From: a virus
DNA length: 25,399 bases
Reading direction: 5' to 3' (one strand)
IMG/VR virus record: IMGVR_UViG_3300040801_002993
Span: 1 to 25,399 of that record
Shown one piece after another: positions 348 through 21,987 of the stretch. The notes below the pieces were generated by a model. The model ran no database searches. It worked only from the letters and a program-made list of their open reading frames with translations, and was not told the origin of the DNA. Numbering within the stretch: position 1 is the stretch's first letter; each line of letters starts with the position of its first letter. Made by a program: the position numbers and the translations under genes.

Positions 348-911
348 ATGGATTATAAACAATTAAGATTGTTCAGCGAGATATTGATTGTAGAATCTGA
401 TATGAATGAATCTACAAAATTATTTCATCTGAATTTTATTCATAATGAAGCAACTATTCCGCAAATTAAAGCTTATATTATGGATGGTAGTATTGTTGAA
501 TTAGATGAACAAGCTGAACAAATAGTTAATGATCGATTTTCTTTACATGAAGTTAAAGTCAATAAAAAATATAGAGAGTTTGAACCCAAAATTAAAAAGT
601 TTTTAAAATATGGGCTGGTTGCTGTTTTGGGAGCAGGATTCGGAAGTATATTAACAATGGCTTTTCTTTTCATGTATAGGCATTTAACAGATAAATGTGT
701 AAAGGATTGTGGGGGCGTTTCTGCTACTAAAGTTTGTTACAATAGATGTTATTTAAAAGCTGCTCAAGAAGTTCTGGGAAGAATTAACAAAGAGATCAGT
801 AATATTGGAAAACTCCCTATGGAAAAAAGAGCTTCAACGTTACATAAATTACAAAAAGAAAAAAATATTTGGGAAGAAAAAGTTAATAAGTATAAAAAAA
901 GATTGGCTTAA
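348..911 (+). CDS. Membrane-anchored cysteine-hairpin protein, paralogue 1
   Basis: 187 aa, start preceded by GAGGA. It is the first of four related genes in the window. The N-terminal domain (about residues 1-65) has the family signature LNFIHNEAT...MDG.IV.LDEQAEQIVNDRF. A basic linker leads to one strong hydrophobic segment at about 88-110 (one transmembrane helix). Then come C117-x3-C121 and C130-x3-C134, and a long charged C-terminal helix. The twin CX3C pattern suggests a disulfide-pinned helical hairpin next to the membrane segment. The function is unknown to me. Because a paralogue follows the tail tube gene, I infer a virion or morphogenesis role. No signal peptide is visible, so orientation in the membrane cannot be set. 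Confidence 0.85.
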   Translation: MDYKQLRLFSEILIVESDMNESTKLFHLNFIHNEATIPQIKAYIMDGSIVELDEQAEQIVNDRFSLHEVKVNKKYREFEPKIKKFLKYGLVAVLGAGFGSILTMAFLFMYRHLTDKCVKDCGGVSATKVCYNRCYLKAAQEVLGRINKEISNIGKLPMEKRASTLHKLQKEKNIWEEKVNKYKKRLA

Positions 912-927
912 AAGAGGAGATATTTAG

Positions 928-1542
928 ATGGACAGACAGTTAAGAATTATTGCAGCAGAAATGATTGTTGAATCTAAATTATCAAAGTCTGCAAAATTTC
1001 AACTATTAAATTTTATTAAAGAAGAAGCCACAGATGCTCAAGTTAAAGCTCTATTGATGGATGGCAAAATTGTTCAGCTTGATGAACAAGCAGAAGAAAT
1101 TGTGAATGATAGATTTGAAATAAGTGAAGCTGGAGGAAAAGTTTCTCAAGCAAGAAAAACATATTTTAGCGCAGTTAATTCTCCCGCTGGTCATATAGCA
1201 ACTGGAGCTACAGCCGCTGCTGGAGCAGTTGGAGCAGGTATGTCTGCCGCGCCTGCATTAGCCAGTGCAGCAGTTGGTGCCGGGATTTGGGCTTTGTATA
1301 GAGTAATCCGTGGAAAATATGACAAGTGTACTAAAAGATGTGGTACGTTTGAAATTAATACTGCCAGAAGACAACATTGTATGGCGAAATGTAAAGTAGA
1401 AAAAACTCAAGCTGAACTAACTGCTGCAATGAAAAGTAAAAATCAAAAAGAAATCGAAAAGAAAAAAGCTACGTTAGCCAAAGCAAAACAAACATTTGCC
1501 AACATAGAAAAAACTTTTAGAGATAAAGAAAAACCGAGATAA
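928..1542 (+). CDS. Membrane-anchored cysteine-hairpin protein, paralogue 2
   Basis: 204 aa with GAGGAG upstream of the start, 16 nt after paralogue 1. Residues 1-64 are almost the same as in the next gene (LLNFIKEEAT, ALLMDGKIVQLDEQAE, IVNDRF). A Gly/Ala-rich hydrophobic stretch at about 90-126 replaces the compact membrane helix of paralogue 1 and could be one long or two short membrane passes. It is followed by C134-x3-C138 and C151-x3-C155, a textbook twin CX3C spacing, and by a Lys/Ala/Glu coiled coil to the end. Twin CX3C with about 12 residues between is also the pattern of the small Tim chaperones. I take this as a shared hairpin geometry only, with no homology claimed. Confidence 0.85.
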   Translation: MDRQLRIIAAEMIVESKLSKSAKFQLLNFIKEEATDAQVKALLMDGKIVQLDEQAEEIVNDRFEISEAGGKVSQARKTYFSAVNSPAGHIATGATAAAGAVGAGMSAAPALASAAVGAGIWALYRVIRGKYDKCTKRCGTFEINTARRQHCMAKCKVEKTQAELTAAMKSKNQKEIEKKKATLAKAKQTFANIEKTFRDKEKPR

Positions 1543-1559
1543 ATGAGAGGGATAATAAA

Positions 1560-2105
1560 ATGGATAAAAATTTAAGATTATTTGCAGCTTCTATGATTTG
1601 CGAATCACAGCTTACCAAACCTGCAAAATTACAACTGTTAAATTTTATTAAAGAAGATGCTACTGATTCACAAGTTAAGGCTTTATTAATGGATGGCAAA
1701 ATTGTTCAACTTGATGAACAAGCAGAGCAAATTGTAAATGATAGATTTGAAGCATCTAAAATAAATGAGAATCTTTTAGTTGAAGGACCGGTCGGAAGTA
1801 TTATGGGAATGTTGATTTTTTCTCCTTTACTTTGGGCTGCATGGAGAGCTCTTGGCGGAATTTTAAGCAAAAAAAGAAGACAATGTGGAACATTTAGAAT
1901 TAGCACTGAAAGAGATAAATGTTTAGAAAGAGTAGTGATTGAAGATTTAAAAGCTAAAATTGCACTCATTGAAAAAGGCATTCGTGAATGTAAAAAATCA
2001 AAAGATCCAAAAGGTTGTGTTGAAAAAGGAAATGCAGCAAAATCTAAAATGTTAGCAAAACTTGCTGAGAAAGAAAAGAAGTTTAAACTAAGATGGGGTG
2101 GATGA
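1560..2105 (+). CDS. Membrane-anchored cysteine-hairpin protein, paralogue 3
   Basis: 181 aa with GAGGG before the start. It is a recent tandem copy of paralogue 2, since the two also match closely at DNA level across the N-terminal domain (about 1624-1750 against 992-1118). A hydrophobic segment lies at about 76-103. The cysteine set differs: C109 and C121 keep one cysteine of each CX3C pair, and a second pair C144-x8-C153 sits in a CKKSKDPKGC turn. That turn closely resembles CAKTKDPAKC in the paralogue at 16126-17352, so this gene links the two subtypes. The C-terminus is a charged helix. Function is unknown; a structural or membrane role is inferred from the family context. Confidence 0.85.
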   Translation: MDKNLRLFAASMICESQLTKPAKLQLLNFIKEDATDSQVKALLMDGKIVQLDEQAEQIVNDRFEASKINENLLVEGPVGSIMGMLIFSPLLWAAWRALGGILSKKRRQCGTFRISTERDKCLERVVIEDLKAKIALIEKGIRECKKSKDPKGCVEKGNAAKSKMLAKLAEKEKKFKLRWGG

Positions 2106-9559: not shown

Positions 9560-9667
9560 AGGATAAACTTATTATTAAAGGATTTTATAAAACTTAGACC
9601 TGGAGAGAAAGGAAACGAACAATATAGAGTTAATAAAAAATGAGAAATATTTGTGGAGGAAAAAATA

Positions 9668-11653
9668 ATGGCTGCTAATGTATCTCCGGGTGTATTCACC
9701 AAGATTATTGACCTATCAGCTTTCATTCAAGCTGTTCCGTCAACAATCGGATTTTTAGCTGGTTTTACAAGAAAAGGGCGTGATAATCAACTTATCTTTG
9801 TTGGTTCAAGATCTGATTTAATTTCAGAATGGGGCGAGCCTGATATTACAGAATTCGGAAAGAATTTTGGTCAAGGTCCATATGAAGCATATAACTATTT
9901 AGGAGAAGCTGGATCTCTTTATTGGATGAGATGCCTTCCTGATAATGCTACATATTCAAATATCAGAATTGATTCACAGTTAGCTGCTTCTGATGCGTCA
10001 GCAAGTATTACAATTACATATGTTGAAGGATTGAATACATCAGATGAAATTAAAACAAATTTAATTACATCTGGTGATACAAAACCTATTGGAATGCTTT
10101 ATCCAATTGGTAGAGGTGATTTTTATAATTCAATTGGAGTTAGATTTACAGAGTTTTCGAACCCAACTGTTTTTGGTGTTTATGTAATGGACATCTATGA
10201 AAAACAGTCAGATGGAGATGATGTAATTATTGAGTCATTCAATGTTTCGTTTGATCCGTTTGCAGTTGATAATGCTGGTGATTCGATTTTCATTGGAAGT
10301 ATTCTTGAAACATATTCATCTGTTTTAAGATTTGAAATGGAATTACCAAGTGGTTTATATACTGATGGTTATGATTTAGTTGCTAAAGTTTTTGATAAAG
10401 AAATTGGTAATGTAAATGTTGTGCTAACTTCTGGGTCAGCTACAATTAGCGATAACAAACAGGATTTTTCCGATTGGGAAACTGATCCTGAAACTGGTAA
10501 TGCTAATTATGTTGTTATTGCAAAAGATGCTAAAGGAAACACAATTTATGGTTGGTTGGGCATTTCTGATTCAGCACAAGATGATGAAATTATTAATGTT
10601 TTTACAGATAGAAATTTAACAGGTGCAACACAAGGATGGAATGGAGCAGTTTCTTCATTTGATGTTAATTCAGCAATTGAATATAGAATTCAAAAGTCAA
10701 ATACAAGTGTGGCATCAGCATTTATTTCGGATACTCCTGTTCCATTGAAGAAAGGTTCTGAGGGGGATTTGAGAACTGCATCTGGTGATGTTGACACAGC
10801 AGAAGCCGAAACACTATTAGAGCAAGCATATAACGGTCTTTTGACAAATCCAGTAACAGGCGAATTAGAAGATCAAATTTATGATACAGAAACAGTTTAT
10901 TTCAGTCTTGTATTTGATGCTGGTTATCCTGCTGATGTAAAGACTGCGATTAGTGGTCTATGTACAACAAGACGTGACTGTGTTGGTATTCTTGATAATG
11001 GTGATAACAATTCTGTTAATGCTGCCTTAGCTGCAAGAAATAATACAAATACATTTAACAACTTCTATGTTGCTCTATACGAATCATTTAATAAAGTATC
11101 AGATCCATTTACAGGCGAAGATGTATGGTTCTCACCAATTTACCATATGTCTTACATTATTCCAAGAAATGATAATGTTGCTGAATTGTGGTTTGCTCCA
11201 GCAGGTTTTAATAGAGCAGCTATTGATTCAATTAAAGAACTTCGTTACAATCCAAGACTTGGTCAGAGAGATCAGCTATACTTGAAACAACTAAATCCAA
11301 TTGTTAAGTTTAGCAATGGTTATGTTGTTTGGGGGCAGTTGACAGCTCAGGCTAAAGCGAGTGCATTACAAGACCTGAATATTGTCAGACTTGTTCTTTA
11401 CTGCAAGAGAGCGATTGAACAATTCTGCCGCTTCTTTATCTTTGAGCAGAATGATCCTATTACATGGGGTCAGGTAAGTGGTGCAATCACAGACTTCTTA
11501 GAAGTTATTAAACAGAAAAGAGGTTTGGACAGTTATTCAATTGATGTTGGCGCAACTGATTACGAAAGAAAAACAAAGAGATTCCATGTTAATATTATTC
11601 TACAGCCAACAAGAACAGTTGAACAAATTGAATTGAACTTCTTCATTCAATAA
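9668..11653 (+). CDS. Tail sheath protein (T4 gp18-like)
   Basis: 661 aa from the ATG at 9668, chosen for GGAGG seven bases before it; a GTG at 9653 in the same frame would overlap that site. The size is close to T4 gp18 (659 aa). The N-terminus (ANVSPGVFTKIIDLS) has the usual 'PGV...D.S' opening. The last about 170 residues carry the conserved sheath core: IIPRNDNVAELWFAPAGFNR, LRYNPRLGQRDQLYLKQLNP, CKRAIEQFCRFFIFEQND and a beta strand end (FHVNIILQPTRTVEQIELNF). It polymerises round the tail tube and contracts on infection. The 108-nt leader 9560-9667 is AT-rich and holds only a weak CGAACA...TATAG promoter-like string at 9616. A strong hairpin terminator follows. Confidence 0.95.
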   Translation: MAANVSPGVFTKIIDLSAFIQAVPSTIGFLAGFTRKGRDNQLIFVGSRSDLISEWGEPDITEFGKNFGQGPYEAYNYLGEAGSLYWMRCLPDNATYSNIRIDSQLAASDASASITITYVEGLNTSDEIKTNLITSGDTKPIGMLYPIGRGDFYNSIGVRFTEFSNPTVFGVYVMDIYEKQSDGDDVIIESFNVSFDPFAVDNAGDSIFIGSILETYSSVLRFEMELPSGLYTDGYDLVAKVFDKEIGNVNVVLTSGSATISDNKQDFSDWETDPETGNANYVVIAKDAKGNTIYGWLGISDSAQDDEIINVFTDRNLTGATQGWNGAVSSFDVNSAIEYRIQKSNTSVASAFISDTPVPLKKGSEGDLRTASGDVDTAEAETLLEQAYNGLLTNPVTGELEDQIYDTETVYFSLVFDAGYPADVKTAISGLCTTRRDCVGILDNGDNNSVNAALAARNNTNTFNNFYVALYESFNKVSDPFTGEDVWFSPIYHMSYIIPRNDNVAELWFAPAGFNRAAIDSIKELRYNPRLGQRDQLYLKQLNPIVKFSNGYVVWGQLTAQAKASALQDLNIVRLVLYCKRAIEQFCRFFIFEQNDPITWGQVSGAITDFLEVIKQKRGLDSYSIDVGATDYERKTKRFHVNIILQPTRTVEQIELNFFIQ

Positions 11654-11719: not shown

Positions 11720-12205
11720 CTAAGGCGCCAACGGCATTCCCAATGGAACAACTGAAAGGTTGTGTTTTAACGATCCGTCTAACCATTTCGTTGTATAGAC
11801 CAAATAACACAACACATTCTTTTCTGCATCATACCAACGCCCAATCTTCATAACTTTACTCCCGATTGATTTACTGACGCTAGCAATGTTTTTATTTGTT
11901 GATGTATTGATGATCATCTTACCATCTTTGTCTCTTGGGATTTCTCCTGTAAGACGTGCTGCAATCGATGTATTGCTTGGGTCGGCTAATGCGAGAATTT
12001 TCCCGCTTTTGATTGTTGTGAAATATATGGACACAAACGGATTATCGGGGTCATCAACCCGAATGATGTTAATAACATCATTCCCCTGAACCATTCTGTT
12101 TACAGCATCAACCTCGCCAATTTTGACTGCTTGCCCTGCTGACGCGATTCCAGCACAGAAAAGAATGATGATAAATGCTGCAATGTATTCCTTTACCGTT
12201 TTCAT
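11720..12205 (-). CDS. CreA-family secreted protein
   Basis: 161 aa with AGGAGG four bases before the ATG. Residues 1-23 are a clear Sec signal peptide ending ASA, with likely cleavage before G24. The mature part matches what I know of bacterial CreA: IGEVDAVNRM..., a DDPDNPFVSIYF strand, the hallmark LADPSNTSIAARLTGEI, and near the end 'WYDAEKNVLCYLVYTTKW' and 'DGSLKHNLSVVP'. CreA is a periplasmic protein of unknown function from proteobacteria, about the same length (157 aa in E. coli). Here it is the last gene of a phage minus-strand cassette. The base composition is visibly less AT-rich than the structural genes, which suggests host origin. Role during infection is unknown. Confidence 0.85.
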   Translation of the reverse strand: MKTVKEYIAAFIIILFCAGIASAGQAVKIGEVDAVNRMVQGNDVINIIRVDDPDNPFVSIYFTTIKSGKILALADPSNTSIAARLTGEIPRDKDGKMIINTSTNKNIASVSKSIGSKVMKIGRWYDAEKNVLCYLVYTTKWLDGSLKHNLSVVPLGMPLAP

Positions 12206-12213
12206 AAAACCTC

Positions 12214-12873
12214 CTAATCAATTTTTTCAGCGTTGGTTAATGCTATGTCAAGATCTAACTGTGTTTCTGCTGCTTTGTTTGCTGTATCAATTGCATCATC
12301 AATTATATCTTGAGTTAATAGCTGACAGACATTTACGATTATAAAATTCACATTTCTCGCTACCTGTCCTCTAACAAAAATTCTATTCGGATCTTTATCA
12401 TTTATATGACTTTTATATGTGTCACCTTGAATTCTTAATGGATTTGGAATCGATCTAACTATTAAATTTAATTCATCTAATAACGAAAGAAAATACAAAC
12501 ATGATGAAACTGATAGTCTATGATTATTTAATGATGCAAACACAGGTGAAGATGATACTGCAATACATAATTTTTTAACTTGATTTATATCAACTGATTC
12601 ATGTTCTACAATACCAGCATGTTCTCTTAAGCCAAAGAATGACTCAATTTTAAATCCCGGTGGTATTGCAACAAAATCTAATAATGTATAATCATCAACA
12701 TTGTTGTTAAAACCTTCATCCTGAGCATCAAATTTTATATCATCAAGACTCATTTCTTTAAACAAATCATCTATATCAACTGTAACTTTTTTTCTTTTAG
12801 TGTTTGCTGATCCTGTAGGACGGAACAGACCTGAAAATATTCCCATGCTCAATTTCTGCAAAGTATTCGCCAT
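12214..12873 (-). CDS. Unrecognised cassette 2 protein
   Basis: 219 aa from the ATG at 12873, chosen because GGTGA stands just before it. A start at 12885 or 12846 is possible. The N-terminus has a basic patch (TKRKKVTVDID) then an acidic run (DLFKEMSLDDIKFDAQDE). The middle and end look like a folded helical/beta domain (IPPGFKIESFFGLREHAGIVE, VKKLCIAVSSSPVFASL, LYFLSLLDELNLIVRSIPNP), and the C-terminus is helical. No motif is recognised and no membrane segment is clear. Its start lies inside the end of the preceding TNSSS gene (overlap about 77 nt), so the two are probably coupled. It precedes the CreA-like gene by 8 nt. Confidence 0.75.
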   Translation of the reverse strand: MANTLQKLSMGIFSGLFRPTGSANTKRKKVTVDIDDLFKEMSLDDIKFDAQDEGFNNNVDDYTLLDFVAIPPGFKIESFFGLREHAGIVEHESVDINQVKKLCIAVSSSPVFASLNNHRLSVSSCLYFLSLLDELNLIVRSIPNPLRIQGDTYKSHINDKDPNRIFVRGQVARNVNFIIVNVCQLLTQDIIDDAIDTANKAAETQLDLDIALTNAEKID

Positions 12874-13303
12874 CTTCGTCACCATAATGAAAGAGGTAAA
12901 TAAAATGTTCTTCGTTTAACTTTTTTAAGAAACCAATTGCAATTTCTTCTGCAATGTCAAATCTGCGGCGTTCCCTTTCACCCCACATTTGTTCTCGCCA
13001 TTGAGGATTATCAAGTAATTCTTTTTTGCTTATACCCTCTCTTTCACAAAACTTTGTTTCGTAATCCATATAGTCATCTTCTTGTTCAATATAACCATTA
13101 CTTATTTCTTCAGCTAATTTTTTAACAACTATTTTTGATTTAAATCTCATAGGAGTTTGATTTTTTGCATCCCCAAATATAGTATGTGAATATTTCTCGG
13201 GTATATATTTTTCAACATCATCTATAGTTTCAATTTTTTGAGGGAATGCAACTATAAACGATGAACTTGAACTATTTGTTACAAAATCTGTTTTGATTTT
13301 CAT
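12797..13303 (-). CDS. TDFVTNSSS-leader protein 2
   Basis: 168 aa from the ATG at 13303, which overlaps the stop of the upstream gene as ATGA; the ATG at 13315 lacks spacing for a ribosome site. The first residues are MKIKTDFVTNSSSSSFIVAF, the same opening as the upstream gene (MRIKTDFVTNSSSTCFVVM). The body is unlike the neighbour: charged, helical, with CEREGISKKELLDNPQWREQ and EEIAIGFLKKLNEEHFIYLF. I recall this Ser-rich opening on many otherwise unrelated hypothetical proteins of bacteria and phages. Its purpose is not known to me. It shares an operon with a radical SAM protein. Function unassigned. Confidence 0.8.
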   Translation of the reverse strand: MKIKTDFVTNSSSSSFIVAFPQKIETIDDVEKYIPEKYSHTIFGDAKNQTPMRFKSKIVVKKLAEEISNGYIEQEDDYMDYETKFCEREGISKKELLDNPQWREQMWGERERRRFDIAEEIAIGFLKKLNEEHFIYLFHYGDEDGEYFAEIEHGNIFRSVPSYRISKH

Positions 13304-13641
13304 CCATCTATCCATCCTTCTTCTATATGATGAACTTGACCTAAATAACCAAATTTTTGTTGTAATTGATTTAGAGATCGGGCTTTGAATTGCCCCAATG
13401 TTTCATTATCATCCATCTTTGTATATTCAATTCCAATCATTATATTATCAGCATAATAAGAATCAGGGCCAAATGAATAGACAAGATCTGTGCTCTTCAA
13501 TTCTTCATCTAATTCTTCATATAAATCTTCACGTTCTTCTAAATCATACTTTGCTAATAGCTCATCAATATCTAATGTTGTTCCCATTACGACGAAACAC
13601 GTTGAGCTTGAATTTGTTACAAAATCTGTTTTAATCCTCAT
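13300..13641 (-). CDS. TDFVTNSSS-leader protein 1
   Basis: 113 aa, GGGGGAAG before the start, 16 nt after the radical SAM gene. The opening MRIKTDFVTNSSSTCFVVM matches that of the next gene, including a 21-nt identical DNA stretch (13612-13632 against 13274-13294). The rest is acidic and small (DELLAKYDLEEREDLYEELDEELKSTDLVYSFGPDSYYADN, MIGIEYTKMDDNETLGQF) and has no similarity to the partner that I can see. The protein has no signal peptide, since the hydrophobic run is too short and follows the polar Ser block. A shared N-terminal leader on different bodies suggests a tag read by a common partner. That is inference. Confidence 0.8.
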   Translation of the reverse strand: MRIKTDFVTNSSSTCFVVMGTTLDIDELLAKYDLEEREDLYEELDEELKSTDLVYSFGPDSYYADNIMIGIEYTKMDDNETLGQFKARSLNQLQQKFGYLGQVHHIEEGWIDG

Positions 13642-13657
13642 TTTTTACTTCCCCCTT

Positions 13658-14659
13658 TTACAGTCCATACGGACAGTTATTTCTTTCCTTCTTTAAGCTA
13701 CTTCTGAATACTTTAAATTGTGTTTTATTTTGCCACACATCTTGAATAGAATTTTTACGAATGTCACACCCCCACATTATTTTATTGCCAAAACTACAAG
13801 GCATCATCTTCATATCAGGGGTAATATAAGCTGACATTCTTGCACCTTCACATGTATCTATACTCATGGCCTGTAAGTCTGTAGGGGTTACATATTTTGT
13901 AACGTGATTAACTAAGCAGCTATCCATTCCAATTTTGAATGGAGCTTTTGGTGTAAAGACTACGTCTGCAAAATGTTGAAGGTGATAATCTTTGGGTATT
14001 AAATCTAATCGTTTTCCTGCTCCTTGTGGTTTGAATAGAAGAAAAATTACAGCGTTTAATTCTTTAACTGGAAATGGCGCCCTATAACAATTGCTGCAAT
14101 GTTCCCAAGGATTTACTCCTGTAATAATATCAATGCATTTTTGAAATGTTTTCTTTGAAAATATTTGATGAATATTTGTTTTGACCCCAGCGTTGATTAA
14201 GTTTGTTAGGGCTCTGTATGTTTCTACCCATTCATAATCACTAACTGCTACTGCTCCACACATTTTTGATATTTCAATTTCATCTTCTGTTAGATTTATA
14301 CCGCTTGTTGTATAGCTTGGAACGACTTCATTTTTTACACAATATTCAACTATCTCTTTAAAATTCTCATGCTTATTTGGGTCCCCACGCCCTCCTAAAG
14401 CGACTTGAGTAACATGATGCTTTACTTGTTTGATGATACGTTTAAAATCTTTTAACCTCATATTCGGTTGTTTAATGTGTCCCTGATAACAAAAACTACA
14501 AGCATTGTGACACGATCCCATAATCCCTATATCAAGTAGGGTCGGTAAATCTGTTACGAATGGATCCTTATGCCCATTTACTCCTGATAATATTTCAAGC
14601 CCTGTTTTCTTATTGAATAAAATCATGTATCTATCATTTACAAAACGTTTCCAAGACAT
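13658..14659 (-). CDS. Radical SAM protein with SPASM-like C-terminal cysteine domain
   Basis: 333 aa. C50-x3-C54-x2-C57 (SCHNACSFCYQ) is the 4Fe-4S radical SAM motif. 'VALGGRGDPN' at 86-95 fits the SAM-binding GGxxP strand in degenerate form. C-terminal cysteines C248, C270, C288, C298 and C329 follow the layout of SPASM/twitch auxiliary-cluster domains: 'CEGARMSAYITPDMKMMPCSFG', then 'CDIRKNSIQDVWQNK..FKVFR'. Enzymes of this type (PqqE, AlbA, anSME) modify peptides or proteins. It is the first gene of cassette 2, preceded by the conserved leader element, and is directly followed by the two TNSSS proteins, which are natural substrate candidates. A tRNA or small-molecule substrate cannot be excluded. 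The ribosome site is weak (AAAGGA, 14 nt upstream). Confidence 0.9.
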   Translation of the reverse strand: MSWKRFVNDRYMILFNKKTGLEILSGVNGHKDPFVTDLPTLLDIGIMGSCHNACSFCYQGHIKQPNMRLKDFKRIIKQVKHHVTQVALGGRGDPNKHENFKEIVEYCVKNEVVPSYTTSGINLTEDEIEISKMCGAVAVSDYEWVETYRALTNLINAGVKTNIHQIFSKKTFQKCIDIITGVNPWEHCSNCYRAPFPVKELNAVIFLLFKPQGAGKRLDLIPKDYHLQHFADVVFTPKAPFKIGMDSCLVNHVTKYVTPTDLQAMSIDTCEGARMSAYITPDMKMMPCSFGNKIMWGCDIRKNSIQDVWQNKTQFKVFRSSLKKERNNCPYGL

Positions 14660-14817: not shown

Positions 14818-15360
14818 ATGCCATTAAATCAATATTTGAATAAAATACAAGATCAAGATGTTGACGAAGAAGTTTCGTCAGCAGCAGGTATAGGCTTCGC
14901 GGTAGATTCATTCCCATCTATTCCTAAAAAAAAGAAAAAAAGACAGGTTATAAAAGATCCATATCCAAATGAAAGTAGAGTATTTATCGAAATGAAATTA
15001 AGAGCAATGATAGATTTAGATGGAACAATTCACAAATATTCAAAAGGTTACGGAGACGGAACTCTTTATGATGAACCTTATTCAGGAGCAAAAGCTGTTA
15101 TTGATTGGTTAAAAAATAAAGGTTACGAAATAGTTATTTTTACCACTAGAGCATCTGAAGAAAATGCTTTAGAGAATGGCCAAGATGTTAGTAAAGAAAT
15201 AGAAAAAGTGGAAAATTGGTTATCAAATAATGGTATATATTATGACCGTGTAACAGCAGAGAAAATACACGCCGATTTTTATATTGATGATAGAGCTGTT
15301 CAAATTAAAAACGGTAATTGGAAGGAAGTAATGAAGTCTATAAAACAGAGGATGGATTAA
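14818..15360 (+). CDS. HAD-superfamily phosphatase-like protein with N-terminal extension
   Basis: 180 aa, weak GTGGA site upstream. Residues 1-58 are an extension rich in Ser, Asp, Pro and a Lys run (PKKKKKR) that is not part of the enzyme fold. The HAD motifs then follow: D66-L-D68-G-T (AMIDLDGT), T109-T-R111 (IFTTRAS) and D157-D158 (FYIDDRAV). The nucleophile Asp, motif II Thr and the terminal acidic pair are all present, and a helix with K149 could supply motif III. HADs of this small type act on nucleotides or phosphopolynucleotides. It sits directly upstream of the tail tube gene, so it will be made late; the extension may be a packaging or interaction tail (inference). Confidence 0.75.
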   Translation: MPLNQYLNKIQDQDVDEEVSSAAGIGFAVDSFPSIPKKKKKRQVIKDPYPNESRVFIEMKLRAMIDLDGTIHKYSKGYGDGTLYDEPYSGAKAVIDWLKNKGYEIVIFTTRASEENALENGQDVSKEIEKVENWLSNNGIYYDRVTAEKIHADFYIDDRAVQIKNGNWKEVMKSIKQRMD

Positions 15361-19518: not shown

Positions 19519-21987
19519 ATGGCAACTGACAATACCGTTTCAAGTCAGGTTTATAAATCGAAAGATAGAATAAGAAACGAAATCATTACATATTTACAAC
19601 AGTATTTAGAACTTGAAAATGTTGATCTTACGAAATCATCATTCCTATCATTCATTGTTGATATTCTTTCAGTATTGACAAGCAATTTGATGTTCTATCA
19701 AATTTCATCATATCGTGAATTCTTTTTAACAAAAGCACAGTTGCCAGAATCAATTTATAATCTTGCGGCATTTCTTGGATATAACCCACAAGAAGCAACT
19801 CCAGCAGAAGTAAATGTGTTGTTTACAATTCCTTTTGGATTTTCAGATGCATTAACACAATTCTCTTTGGCAGAAGGATTTAAATTGGAGGCTGAAGGCG
19901 GAATTCCGTTTGTCACAACGTATTCTACTACTATAACAGTAACAAATAATTCACAAGTCTCTGTTATTATTAGAGAAGGAAATAGAACATACAACCTTCC
20001 TGTTACTGTTGATGCAGATCAATTTTATTTTGTTTTGCCAATGACTCAAATAACAACAAATTCACAAGAATTTCAAATTTCTGAAGATTTACAACAATAT
20101 CAATTTGTTACTGTTGAGGCGCCTTTTAGCGGACAAATATCATCACAAACTGTTAGCGTTCAACCTCCAGATTCAAATTCTTCTGTAACATATACGGAAT
20201 ATCCAAGTTTATTCTTGATGGATAACACAACAAAAGGTTATGTTGCCAGAAGAACAGACGAAGGATTAACATTACAATTTGGAAACGGATTAATTGGTTA
20301 TCAACCAGAAGCAGGATCAACTGTATTTGTTGATCTGTTATTGACTCAAGGTGTAGATGGAAATGTTATTGCAGGATCCATTCATGCAGGAGATAGAATT
20401 TACAATACAAATTTATCTGGTATCACAGAAATTGTTCAATATTCAGTAACAAATACAGCCCCAGCTTTTAATGGACAAGATGAGGAATCAATTGAGCAAG
20501 TTCGTAGTAATGCAATTGCAAATATTAGTGCTCTTGAAAGATTAGTTACAGATAATGATTTTGTTCATGCGAATCAAATTATTGATGATTCGCCTATTGG
20601 TCAAAATTCATTACCTGTGTTGAAACGATCTGATCTGAAAATTAATGAAATTGCTTTATTTTCAACGCTTTATTTTGGAAATGATTTGGTCCCAACAAGA
20701 GATTTGTATCATGAATTTTCATCTGTATCTGTTCCGAGGGAAACAATATTAACATTCAACAATCGTCAATATTATACTATTTATGATATGAATATAGATG
20801 TTTTAAATTCTTCAGCATCATATACATATATTATGTATGAAATAGAAAACATTCCAACGCTTGTTACAAGTTATGGATCTGATTATGATTTATATGCAGA
20901 TCAATTGGTTATTACAAGAAACGGAACACAAGCTACATATAGATTGAATTATCAGACAACTGAATCAGATGTATTATTAACATCATGTCAAATGGAAATT
21001 TCTGAAACTGGTGCAACATATAATATGGTAAATGATGGGTCTTCATTTGTTTATGTTTTTGCTAATAATCAGGTTATTCCAAAGGGTGAACTTACATACT
21101 TCTTTACTATAACACATTCAACTTTAGGAAGTATTGGTCAATATACATCACAGTTTATTTTTAGACTATCACTTGATGACTTTACAACTTCTAATGCTTT
21201 TGTAAACGATGCAACATCATTTATTGTTTATGATATTCCTGCGATTGAAAAGAGTTACTATGATAGTATTAACAAACGAGATTTTGAAAATCAAGTTTTA
21301 CAACAAATGTTAACAACTATGACATTTAAAGATTATAGAATGTTAACTGACTTTGTTAATTTTAAGTTTGCAAATACAGTTGGACAAATGAATAATATGC
21401 AGTTGAATGATATTGATCTTCCCGCGGTTATAGATATTCGTTCGAACCCACCTACGTTAGACACAACCGCTGTTGGGAATAGATATATTGTTTTGAATGG
21501 TGTAGGGGATTGGCTTGGTCGTGACAACGCTATAGCAACAGGCAGTGTTGACGGAACTTCATATACATGGGTTTATACAGAACCAAAAACTGATCAAATG
21601 GTATATGTTCAAAATAAAGGATTGAAATATATTTATTGCTCTTCAGGATGGGTTGTGCCTGCATATCAAATACCATTACAAATTTCTTTGGATGTTTTTA
21701 TCGAAGATACATATACAGGAACATTGGGTGATTTAACCCAATCAATTCGTGAAACTTTAGTTGAATCATTTCAAGATAGGTTTGGTATTGGTGTTAATTT
21801 ATATAGGTCAGAAATTATTGATGTTGTTCAAGAAGTTGATGGAGTTGAACATTGTAGATTACTAACACCACAATCAAGTATTTTCTTTAACTTTGATATT
21901 GATAATTTTACACAAGAAGAATTATTGCGTTATGCTCCAGAATACATTTATTTCACAGAAGATGATATATCAATTAGGGTATTCTAA
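19519..21987 (+). CDS. Baseplate wedge protein, gp6-like (Baseplate_J type)
   Basis: 822 aa, GGGAG upstream. The N-terminus has the typical helical opening of T4 gp6: 'YLQQYLELENVDLTKSSFLSFIVDILSVLTSNLMFYQISSYREFFLTKAQLPES' and 'AAFLGYNP'. A central Baseplate_J section (TLQFGNGLIGYQPEAGSTVFVDLLLTQGVDGNVIAG, ITEIVQYSVTNTAPAFNGQDEESIEQVRSNA) follows. The last part has the beta-helix-like closing seen in gp6, with 'IRETLVESFQDRFGIGVNLYRSEIIDVVQEVDGVEHCRL'. T4 gp6 is 660 aa; the extra length lies in the middle to C-terminal half. gp6 dimers bind gp7 and gp53 and form the wedge ring. Confidence 0.9.
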   Translation: MATDNTVSSQVYKSKDRIRNEIITYLQQYLELENVDLTKSSFLSFIVDILSVLTSNLMFYQISSYREFFLTKAQLPESIYNLAAFLGYNPQEATPAEVNVLFTIPFGFSDALTQFSLAEGFKLEAEGGIPFVTTYSTTITVTNNSQVSVIIREGNRTYNLPVTVDADQFYFVLPMTQITTNSQEFQISEDLQQYQFVTVEAPFSGQISSQTVSVQPPDSNSSVTYTEYPSLFLMDNTTKGYVARRTDEGLTLQFGNGLIGYQPEAGSTVFVDLLLTQGVDGNVIAGSIHAGDRIYNTNLSGITEIVQYSVTNTAPAFNGQDEESIEQVRSNAIANISALERLVTDNDFVHANQIIDDSPIGQNSLPVLKRSDLKINEIALFSTLYFGNDLVPTRDLYHEFSSVSVPRETILTFNNRQYYTIYDMNIDVLNSSASYTYIMYEIENIPTLVTSYGSDYDLYADQLVITRNGTQATYRLNYQTTESDVLLTSCQMEISETGATYNMVNDGSSFVYVFANNQVIPKGELTYFFTITHSTLGSIGQYTSQFIFRLSLDDFTTSNAFVNDATSFIVYDIPAIEKSYYDSINKRDFENQVLQQMLTTMTFKDYRMLTDFVNFKFANTVGQMNNMQLNDIDLPAVIDIRSNPPTLDTTAVGNRYIVLNGVGDWLGRDNAIATGSVDGTSYTWVYTEPKTDQMVYVQNKGLKYIYCSSGWVVPAYQIPLQISLDVFIEDTYTGTLGDLTQSIRETLVESFQDRFGIGVNLYRSEIIDVVQEVDGVEHCRLLTPQSSIFFNFDIDNFTQEELLRYAPEYIYFTEDDISIRVF

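Follow-up and report, generated by a model that had tools for sequence, protein, structure and literature searches.

The window, meaning the whole 25,399-bp virus record analyzed here, belongs to a contractile-tail phage and encodes a tail sheath and a baseplate wedge protein (Table 1). Three open reading frames lie together on its minus strand, where an earlier note on this DNA had placed them: a 333-residue enzyme is followed after a 16-bp gap by protein A, which is followed by protein B. As that note had also recognized, the two adjoining genes share the N-terminus M-x-I-K-T-D-F-V-T-N-S-S-S and have dissimilar bodies. More precisely, both tags read M-[RK]-I-K-T-D-F-V-T-N-S-S-S and are identical over residues 3-13, and downstream of the tag there is no clear similarity. 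In the DNA encoding residues 3-13, 10 of 33 nucleotides differ between A and B, and so do the serine codons. The most probable start codon of protein B is the ATG at 13303 (168 residues, MKIKTDFV...), rather than position 13315: it overlaps the stop codon of A (ATGA), and 237 of 240 homologous tags have the methionine as their very first residue.

Table 1. Features of the window, with the evidence for each
Feature	Position	Strand	Basis
Tail sheath	9653-11653		
Baseplate wedge	19519-21987		
Radical SAM/SPASM enzyme, 333 aa	13658-14659 (stop 13658-13660)	minus	ORF; PF04055 and PF13186 above cut-off
Radical SAM motif C50-x3-C54-x2-C57	14489-14512	minus	Sequence
Shortened SPASM domain (C270, C288, C329; C248 upstream)	13673-13852	minus	PF13186 match, residues 270-329
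Tagged protein A, 113 aa, begins MRIKTDFVTNSSSTCFVV	13300-13641 including stop (coding 13641-13303)	minus	ORF
Protein A N-terminal tag, residues 1-17	13591-13641	minus	Tag profile scan and alignment
Tagged protein B, 168 aa, begins MKIKTDFVTNSSSSSFIVAF	12797-13303	minus	ORF from ATG overlapping the stop of A
Protein B N-terminal tag, residues 1-17	13253-13303	minus	Tag profile scan, alignment and AF2 model

The enzyme and the tagged proteins of the window

The enzyme contains the C50-x3-C54-x2-C57 motif and passes the Pfam cut-offs for both Radical_SAM (PF04055, 36.0 bits, cut-off 29.5) and SPASM (PF13186, 23.7 bits, cut-off 21.5), in agreement with its earlier assignment. C50 and C57 are invariant among 87 homologs. 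Five C-terminal cysteines had been read as a SPASM arrangement; C248, C270, C288 and C329 are indeed conserved, but C299 is not. With these four, the SPASM domain is a shortened one and falls short of the canonical set of seven cysteines that hold two auxiliary clusters. Phage-type homologs retain CX3CX2C, and the window enzyme and nearly all of the others have only one or two cysteines after the PCSF motif, whereas bacterial-type enzymes mostly carry CX7CX6C, and most have five or six cysteines in that region. The window enzyme matches phrog_7293 ('unknown function', E 1.4e-24). No NCBIfam equivalog scores above its cut-off (best TIGR04317, 41.9 bits versus 380; viperin NF038283, 18.6 bits versus 180), and there is no Pfam match to PqqD.

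An AlphaFold2 model of the enzyme (pLDDT 95.4, pTM 0.93) was compared with known structures. The top PDB match in VIA-align is SuiB (Z 25.0, 302 residues aligned), followed by SkfB (Z 23.3), PqqE (20.5), anSME (19.5), CteB (18.8) and viperin (18.7), and Foldseek again places SuiB, SkfB and PqqE on top. A profile search of PDB sequences matched only SkfB and BtrN, weakly. The predicted fold is nearest to those of the peptide maturases SuiB, SkfB, PqqE and anSME. In the model of the window enzyme, three N-terminal strands without helices precede the barrel, without a complete RiPP recognition element (RRE); some relatives may have one, or it may act in trans.

Protein A has no match in Pfam, NCBIfam or PHROG, and protein B matches phrog_7397 ('unknown function', E 1.9e-12). 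The AF2 model of protein B has a pLDDT of 90.7; residues 1-9 fall under 50, the folded body begins at residue 13 and the first strand spans residues 13-20. For this one protein, the model thus predicts a tag that is flexible at its start and continues into the first strand. The fold of the body gave no match worth naming (Gam, Z 5.6; none in BFVD).

Occurrence of the enzyme-tag pair in bacteria and phages

We searched 84,980 prokaryote species, one genome each, with a profile (A1) made from ten phage enzymes, leaving the tag unused. This yielded 80 bacterial loci at 35-42% identity, mostly in Clostridia but also in Anaerolineaceae, Desulfobacterales, Eggerthellaceae, one Bacteroidales and one Gastranaerophilales assembly. 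A tagged gene is present at 77 of the 80 loci and is nearly always adjacent to the enzyme gene. At the other three loci, the tag lies in a very short open frame (L086), a TAA codon occupies the position of Ser11 (L104), or the contig ends inside the enzyme (L108). We considered a selenocysteine at Ser11 of L104, but the codon is TAA, which points to an assembly error or a gene that is broken. Among 128 non-redundant enzymes, the tag is found within 1 kb for 63 of the 67 from bacteria and 43 of the 61 from phages, with both genes on the same strand in 93 of 94 comparable pairs.

Whole genomes were also scanned, in unbiased censuses, with the N-terminal tag pattern. Among 245 Clostridia, the enzyme occurs in five genomes and the pattern in four, all within these five; the fifth (G107) has an adjacent tagged gene that the pattern missed. 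Among 299 genomes of one family, the Lachnospiraceae, the enzyme occurs in six and the pattern in four, again all within the six. Of the two remaining genomes in this second census, G480 has a broken enzyme next to tagged genes with Cys4, which were recognized by inspection, while in G401 the enzyme is truncated and a tag is absent. When the censuses are pooled and the centre genome is left out, all six tag genomes are among the nine enzyme genomes of about 537 (hypergeometric P 2.6e-12 with genomes treated as independent, an optimistic value because the census genomes are related). Census genomes without this enzyme family mostly contain other radical SAM-like candidates, yet no tag. No whole-genome or phage scan with the reversed pattern returned a match.

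A viral scan with the window enzyme returned 34 loci, about half of which have tagged genes directly downstream. In the opposite direction, viral contigs were searched for the tag alone, using degenerate DNA that encodes TDFVTNSSS and spells the serines as TCN, which gave six loci. At L037, L038 and L039, the enzyme lies beside five, three and three tagged genes, respectively. L036 and L041 are truncated contigs from the phage group that includes the window, and the 8.4-kb fragment of L040 contains no enzyme. A tblastn search with a 20-residue tag gave no match, the query being too short. In large phages, tagged genes number as many as 11 (G014, with 312 kb). Of 44 phage tagged genes, 33 are no more than 12 kb from the enzyme, whereas 5.3 would be expected and 20,000 random placements gave 16 at most. 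For 15 of the 61 phage enzymes in the tree (for example L006-L009, L023 and L033), the available fragment has no tagged gene, although metagenome fragments may hide distant ones. Homologs of the B-like protein and of the enzyme of phage GAP161 are found in 175 and 174, respectively, of 50,697 annotated phage records. The two sets have nearly the same host-name make-up and represent essentially one T4-like group (Pseudotevenvirus and Slopekvirus), in which about 20 kb separates the tagged gene from the enzyme. This group also includes RB16 and Lw1; for Lw1, the recorded host is E. coli BL21(DE3). Coliphage RB43 encodes two different proteins that both begin with MKIRSGFVSNSSSSSFI.

In bacteria, the pair is found in at least three contexts. 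In Lachnospiraceae (context a), a tagged protein of about 125 residues is encoded just upstream of the enzyme. In context b, a hydrophobic protein of about 285 residues, probably a membrane protein, is accompanied by the enzyme, a 470-740-residue tagged protein and sometimes a 313-residue protein. These long tagged proteins have a hydrophobic stretch after the tag, and we considered a secreted signal peptide, but this misfits the many soluble-looking tagged proteins. Eight loci (context c) combine a STAND NTPase, a 123-142-residue protein, a 131-161-residue tagged protein and the enzyme. Two of these (L194 and L198) have a metallo-beta-lactamase in front that matches Avs1a (175 and 265 bits, respectively). 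A trypsin-like protease is separate in L198 (Avs1b, 68 bits, protease part only) and fused to the STAND protein in L194. The STAND NTPase of L198 best matches Avs2 (83.5 bits), as compared with 71.6 bits for that of L121. PADLOC gave no match for the small and the tagged proteins of the L198-type operon. By homology, context c, which occurs in one bacterial clade, counts as an Avs-like defence. Other neighbors of the pair in bacteria include BrxL, GmrSD and a transposase; no consistent protease or exporter was seen among the neighbors.

The pairing is kept across enzymes of 35-60% identity, in several phyla and in phages, while tagged bodies and neighboring genes change. The genomic association, which the earlier note had proposed as a check, is very strong in phages and bacteria and in both search directions. 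The trio in the window is one case of a widespread partnership between this enzyme and tagged proteins, which extends to phages, gut bacteria and some phage-defence operons.

Conservation of the tag and its match to the enzyme

The 16-residue tag, MKIKTDFVTNSSSSSF, has the consensus M-[KR]-x-[KR]-x-[DG]-[FY]-[VI]-T-N-S-S-S-x-x-[FY] and its motif is located at exactly M+5 in 237 of the 240 tagged proteins found by pattern. A position-specific profile applied to the 128,253 start codons in all fetched loci gave a cleanly bimodal distribution, with 275 starts above 12 bits and almost nothing between the two modes. The profile scan adds variants with Ser or Cys in place of D6 and leaves the core almost unchanged. 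Inspection of bacterial loci revealed further variants, namely RDGFVTNSSST, VDYVTNSSSEVF and TDFVTNSSDSS. Among 237 distinct tagged proteins, N10 and S12 are conserved in all 237, T9 and S11 in 236, F/Y16 in 233 and S13 in 231. The near-invariant core of the tag is T9-N10-S11-S12. The earlier description of a Ser/Thr/Cys block has to be narrowed, as cysteine falls outside the conserved motif and occupies residue 14 in 6 and residue 15 in 11 of the 237 proteins. Each tag serine is encoded by both AGY and TCN codons, indicating that selection acts on the protein; we thus rejected a DNA-level element as the cause of the tag.

The 237 proteins fall into 54 body clusters (57 at a stricter threshold), which confirms the statement in the note that such N-termini occur on many unrelated hypothetical proteins. 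They are about 50-880 residues long, mostly above 100. Most bodies lack a Pfam family, and a few are BRCT, HIRAN or BspA-type leucine-rich repeat proteins; no sulfatase was seen among the tagged bodies scanned.

We compared tags within and between loci. In same-locus pairs with unrelated bodies, residue 4 is equal in 96%, versus 47% between loci, and overall tag identity is 0.646 versus a null of 0.532 (sd 0.016). Residue 4 is uniform in 35 of 38 multi-tag loci. Lys-4 is found with the phage-type enzyme and its shortened SPASM domain, and Arg-4 with the bacterial type, which mostly has a full SPASM domain. Base composition does not explain this difference, since lysine-rich bodies in the bacterial clade keep Arg-4. 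Within the bacterial enzyme clade, one well supported subclade is associated with KVDYVTNSSSEVFG-type tags and another with xGFVTNSSST. The tag variant thus tracks the enzyme type and not the body.

A candidate tag-directed modification system and its relation to known enzymes

We infer binding of the tag by the enzyme, catalysis on the tag, the chemistry involved and the biological role. We think it likely that the pair forms a tag-directed protein-modification system, in which the enzyme would recognize the N-terminal tag on several otherwise unrelated folded proteins and introduce a radical-based covalent change inside it. Docking on the enzyme would be the task of the first nine residues, a flexible leader, and modification would target the T-N-S-S core, where the tag passes into the first beta-strand. 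The change would most likely fall within F7-T9-N10-S11-S12. Candidate chemistries are Ser/Thr oxidation, known from anSME, epimerization, known from EpeE, and a cross-link, for example from the aromatic F7 to T9. Three-residue cyclophane motifs are known, and the cross-link is a notable candidate because the conserved aromatic residue 7 is positioned two residues before T9. Function would come from the bodies, of which each genome has a different set, and modifying the tag would serve to activate, anchor or protect these bodies. The earlier note had taken a common leader on diverse bodies beside a peptide-modifying enzyme as the layout of a modification system; the association and the match between tag variant and enzyme support this in part, and the tag may be either the modified or only the recognition site. 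Our reading further draws on the fixed position of the tag, its near-invariant core, its conservation at the protein level, the predicted maturase fold of the enzyme and the predicted disorder at the start of protein B. Against it stand the phage enzymes without a tagged gene on their fragment, the distance of about 20 kb in the T4-like group, the shortened SPASM domain of the window enzyme and the lack of a complete RRE in its model; the association would also fit a tag that is no substrate.

Alternatively, the tag could be a docking signal only, with the enzyme modifying residues in each body. RiPP leaders are usually recognized rather than modified, and the disordered first nine residues in the protein B model are leader-like. 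However, the 54 unrelated body clusters offer no shared target, and the most constrained residues are inside the tag and extend into the first strand, so that we regard this alternative as unlikely. We give similarly little credence to the idea that tagged proteins are partners or regulators whose tag binds the enzyme or a shared complex, the enzyme itself acting elsewhere, for example on a nucleotide like viperins. The enzyme has weak pVip matches (20-48 bits), its model aligns with viperin at Z 18.7, and the pair occurs with STAND/MBL/protease defence operons. Against this, the structural scores with the peptide maturases SuiB and SkfB are well above that with viperin, a SPASM domain typifies enzymes that modify peptides, and up to 11 tagged proteins per phage would be an odd set of regulators.

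An adjacent rSAM/SPASM enzyme and a common N-terminus would also suit a classical RiPP pathway, with the tagged proteins as precursors and a small product set free once the leader is cleaved off. We consider this very improbable, as the products are about 50-880 residues long, protein B is predicted to be a folded domain, bodies include BRCT, HIRAN and BspA leucine-rich repeats, and the neighbors lack a consistent protease or exporter. The least probable explanation is that the genes travel jointly in mobile islands and phages without a functional link. Defence-island and mobile genes (BrxL, GmrSD, transposase) are indeed nearby, but the pairing persists over the enzyme divergence, phyla and phages described above with changing bodies and neighbors, the tag variant follows the enzyme type, and the censuses show no tag outside the enzyme family.

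Returning to modification of the tag, we tentatively extend this reading to a general system in which a dedicated radical enzyme would place one unusual residue or cross-link at the N-terminus of any tagged protein, whatever its body. Bacteria might use it in several contexts, including STAND-based defence, and phages, with an enzyme and sets of tagged proteins of their own, might counter or mimic it; this broader version is possible but rather less than probable. The enzyme-tag partnership is apparently undescribed: we found no description of the pairing or the tag in open-access full text, a provisional verdict because bioRxiv and most subscription journals were outside the literature scope. 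The string FVTNSS does occur in open-access text in beer-wort peptides, which are irrelevant here. If the proposed system is real, radical SAM chemistry would serve as a portable tag modification on unrelated folded proteins of phages and bacteria, beyond short natural-product precursors or single enzyme families, and it would be tied to STAND/Avs-like phage defence. It would offer a first clue to the function of many 'hypothetical proteins' that start with MKIRTDFVTNSSS, and a short tag could be attached to any protein to bring in a new post-translational change.

We compared the pair with known systems. The rSAM/SPASM RiPP maturases SuiB, SkfB, CteB, PqqE and ChlB resemble the enzyme in predicted fold, domain order and a gene position beside proteins with a shared N-terminus. 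Their substrates are short precursor peptides with a conserved leader and a variable core, whereas the partners here are long (mostly above 100 residues), diverse, unrelated and apparently folded. In addition, no full RRE is seen in the model of the window enzyme, and most bacterial-type enzymes have the noncanonical CX7CX6C motif. Viperins and pVips share the rSAM fold and a weak PADLOC match with our enzyme, but viperins act on nucleotides and are not known to have a tagged partner, and the structural score of the window enzyme is lower than with peptide maturases. The L198 operon resembles AVAST (Avs) in its MBL, protease and STAND NTPase, which match Avs1a, Avs1b and Avs2, and L198 and L194 are candidates for AVAST type I. 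The operon differs in that the rSAM enzyme, a tagged protein and a conserved small one are encoded as well; this likeness is limited to some bacterial loci, and the phage of the window is outside it. In anSME (Z 19.5), an rSAM/SPASM enzyme again acts on a short consensus in a folded protein, oxidizing Cys or Ser. It serves sulfatases alone, through an internal (C/S)xPxR-type motif, whereas the enzyme described here is paired with an N-terminal tag that has a TNSS core and is carried by dozens of unrelated proteins.

Genes surrounding the radical SAM operon

The phage window encodes a radical SAM/SPASM enzyme followed by the tagged proteins A and B, which begin with a common N-terminal tag. The phage-encoded CreA-family protein has an N-terminus resembling a signal peptide, and its gene also lies beside the radical SAM locus in relatives, for example at L006, L014 and L023. 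The gene downstream of protein B probably starts within the listed ORF; its product contains a conserved stretch like FVAVP..F.I.SF..LREHAGI, and such a stretch is likewise found downstream in relatives (L023, L026, L030). A HAD-type phosphatase gene is divergent to the operon, a position conserved across the phage group. At the window start, three tandem duplicates of unknown function share a core like 'LLNFIKEEATDAQVKALLMDGKIVQLDEQAEEIVNDRF'.

Features in the window and at fetched loci
Feature	Location	Strand	Match
Three similar proteins, consecutive genes	window 348-2105	+	
CreA-family protein	window 11720-12205	-	PF05981, 85 bits
Gene downstream of protein B, function unknown	window 12214-12885	-	
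HAD-type phosphatase gene	window 14818-15360	+	phrog_1238
Radical SAM gene with apparent intein	L039:3795-6128		
Bacterial-type enzyme	L197:5116-6045		
Bacterial-type enzyme	L121:9971-11059		
Avs-like operon	L194:3991-9998	-	
Avs-like operon	L198:4739-10729	-	

Variant and interrupted genes

Most bacterial-type enzymes carry CX7CX6C in place of CX3CX2C, a spacing that is unusual for a radical SAM cluster. At L039, an intein (CLSENEIVLR...SHNC) appears to interrupt the radical SAM gene between FQ and CALGGAG. The tagged gene at L104:11098 (+) has TAA at the Ser11 position in an otherwise intact reading frame, and is a broken gene or an assembly error. In genome G480 (L203/L204), a fragmented radical SAM gene lies next to genes for three proteins, roughly 280-306 aa long, whose tags have Cys at residue 4.

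Avs-like operons

A STAND NTPase is encoded in each of the Avs-like operons (L194, L198, L112, L114, L115, L119, L121, L122), accompanied in two of them by a metallo-beta-lactamase and a trypsin-like protease. Three genes close each operon: one for a protein of 123-142 aa, one for a tagged protein (C-terminus ..GW, where read) and one for the radical SAM enzyme. These operons look like an undescribed variant of the Avs-type (AVAST) defence systems.
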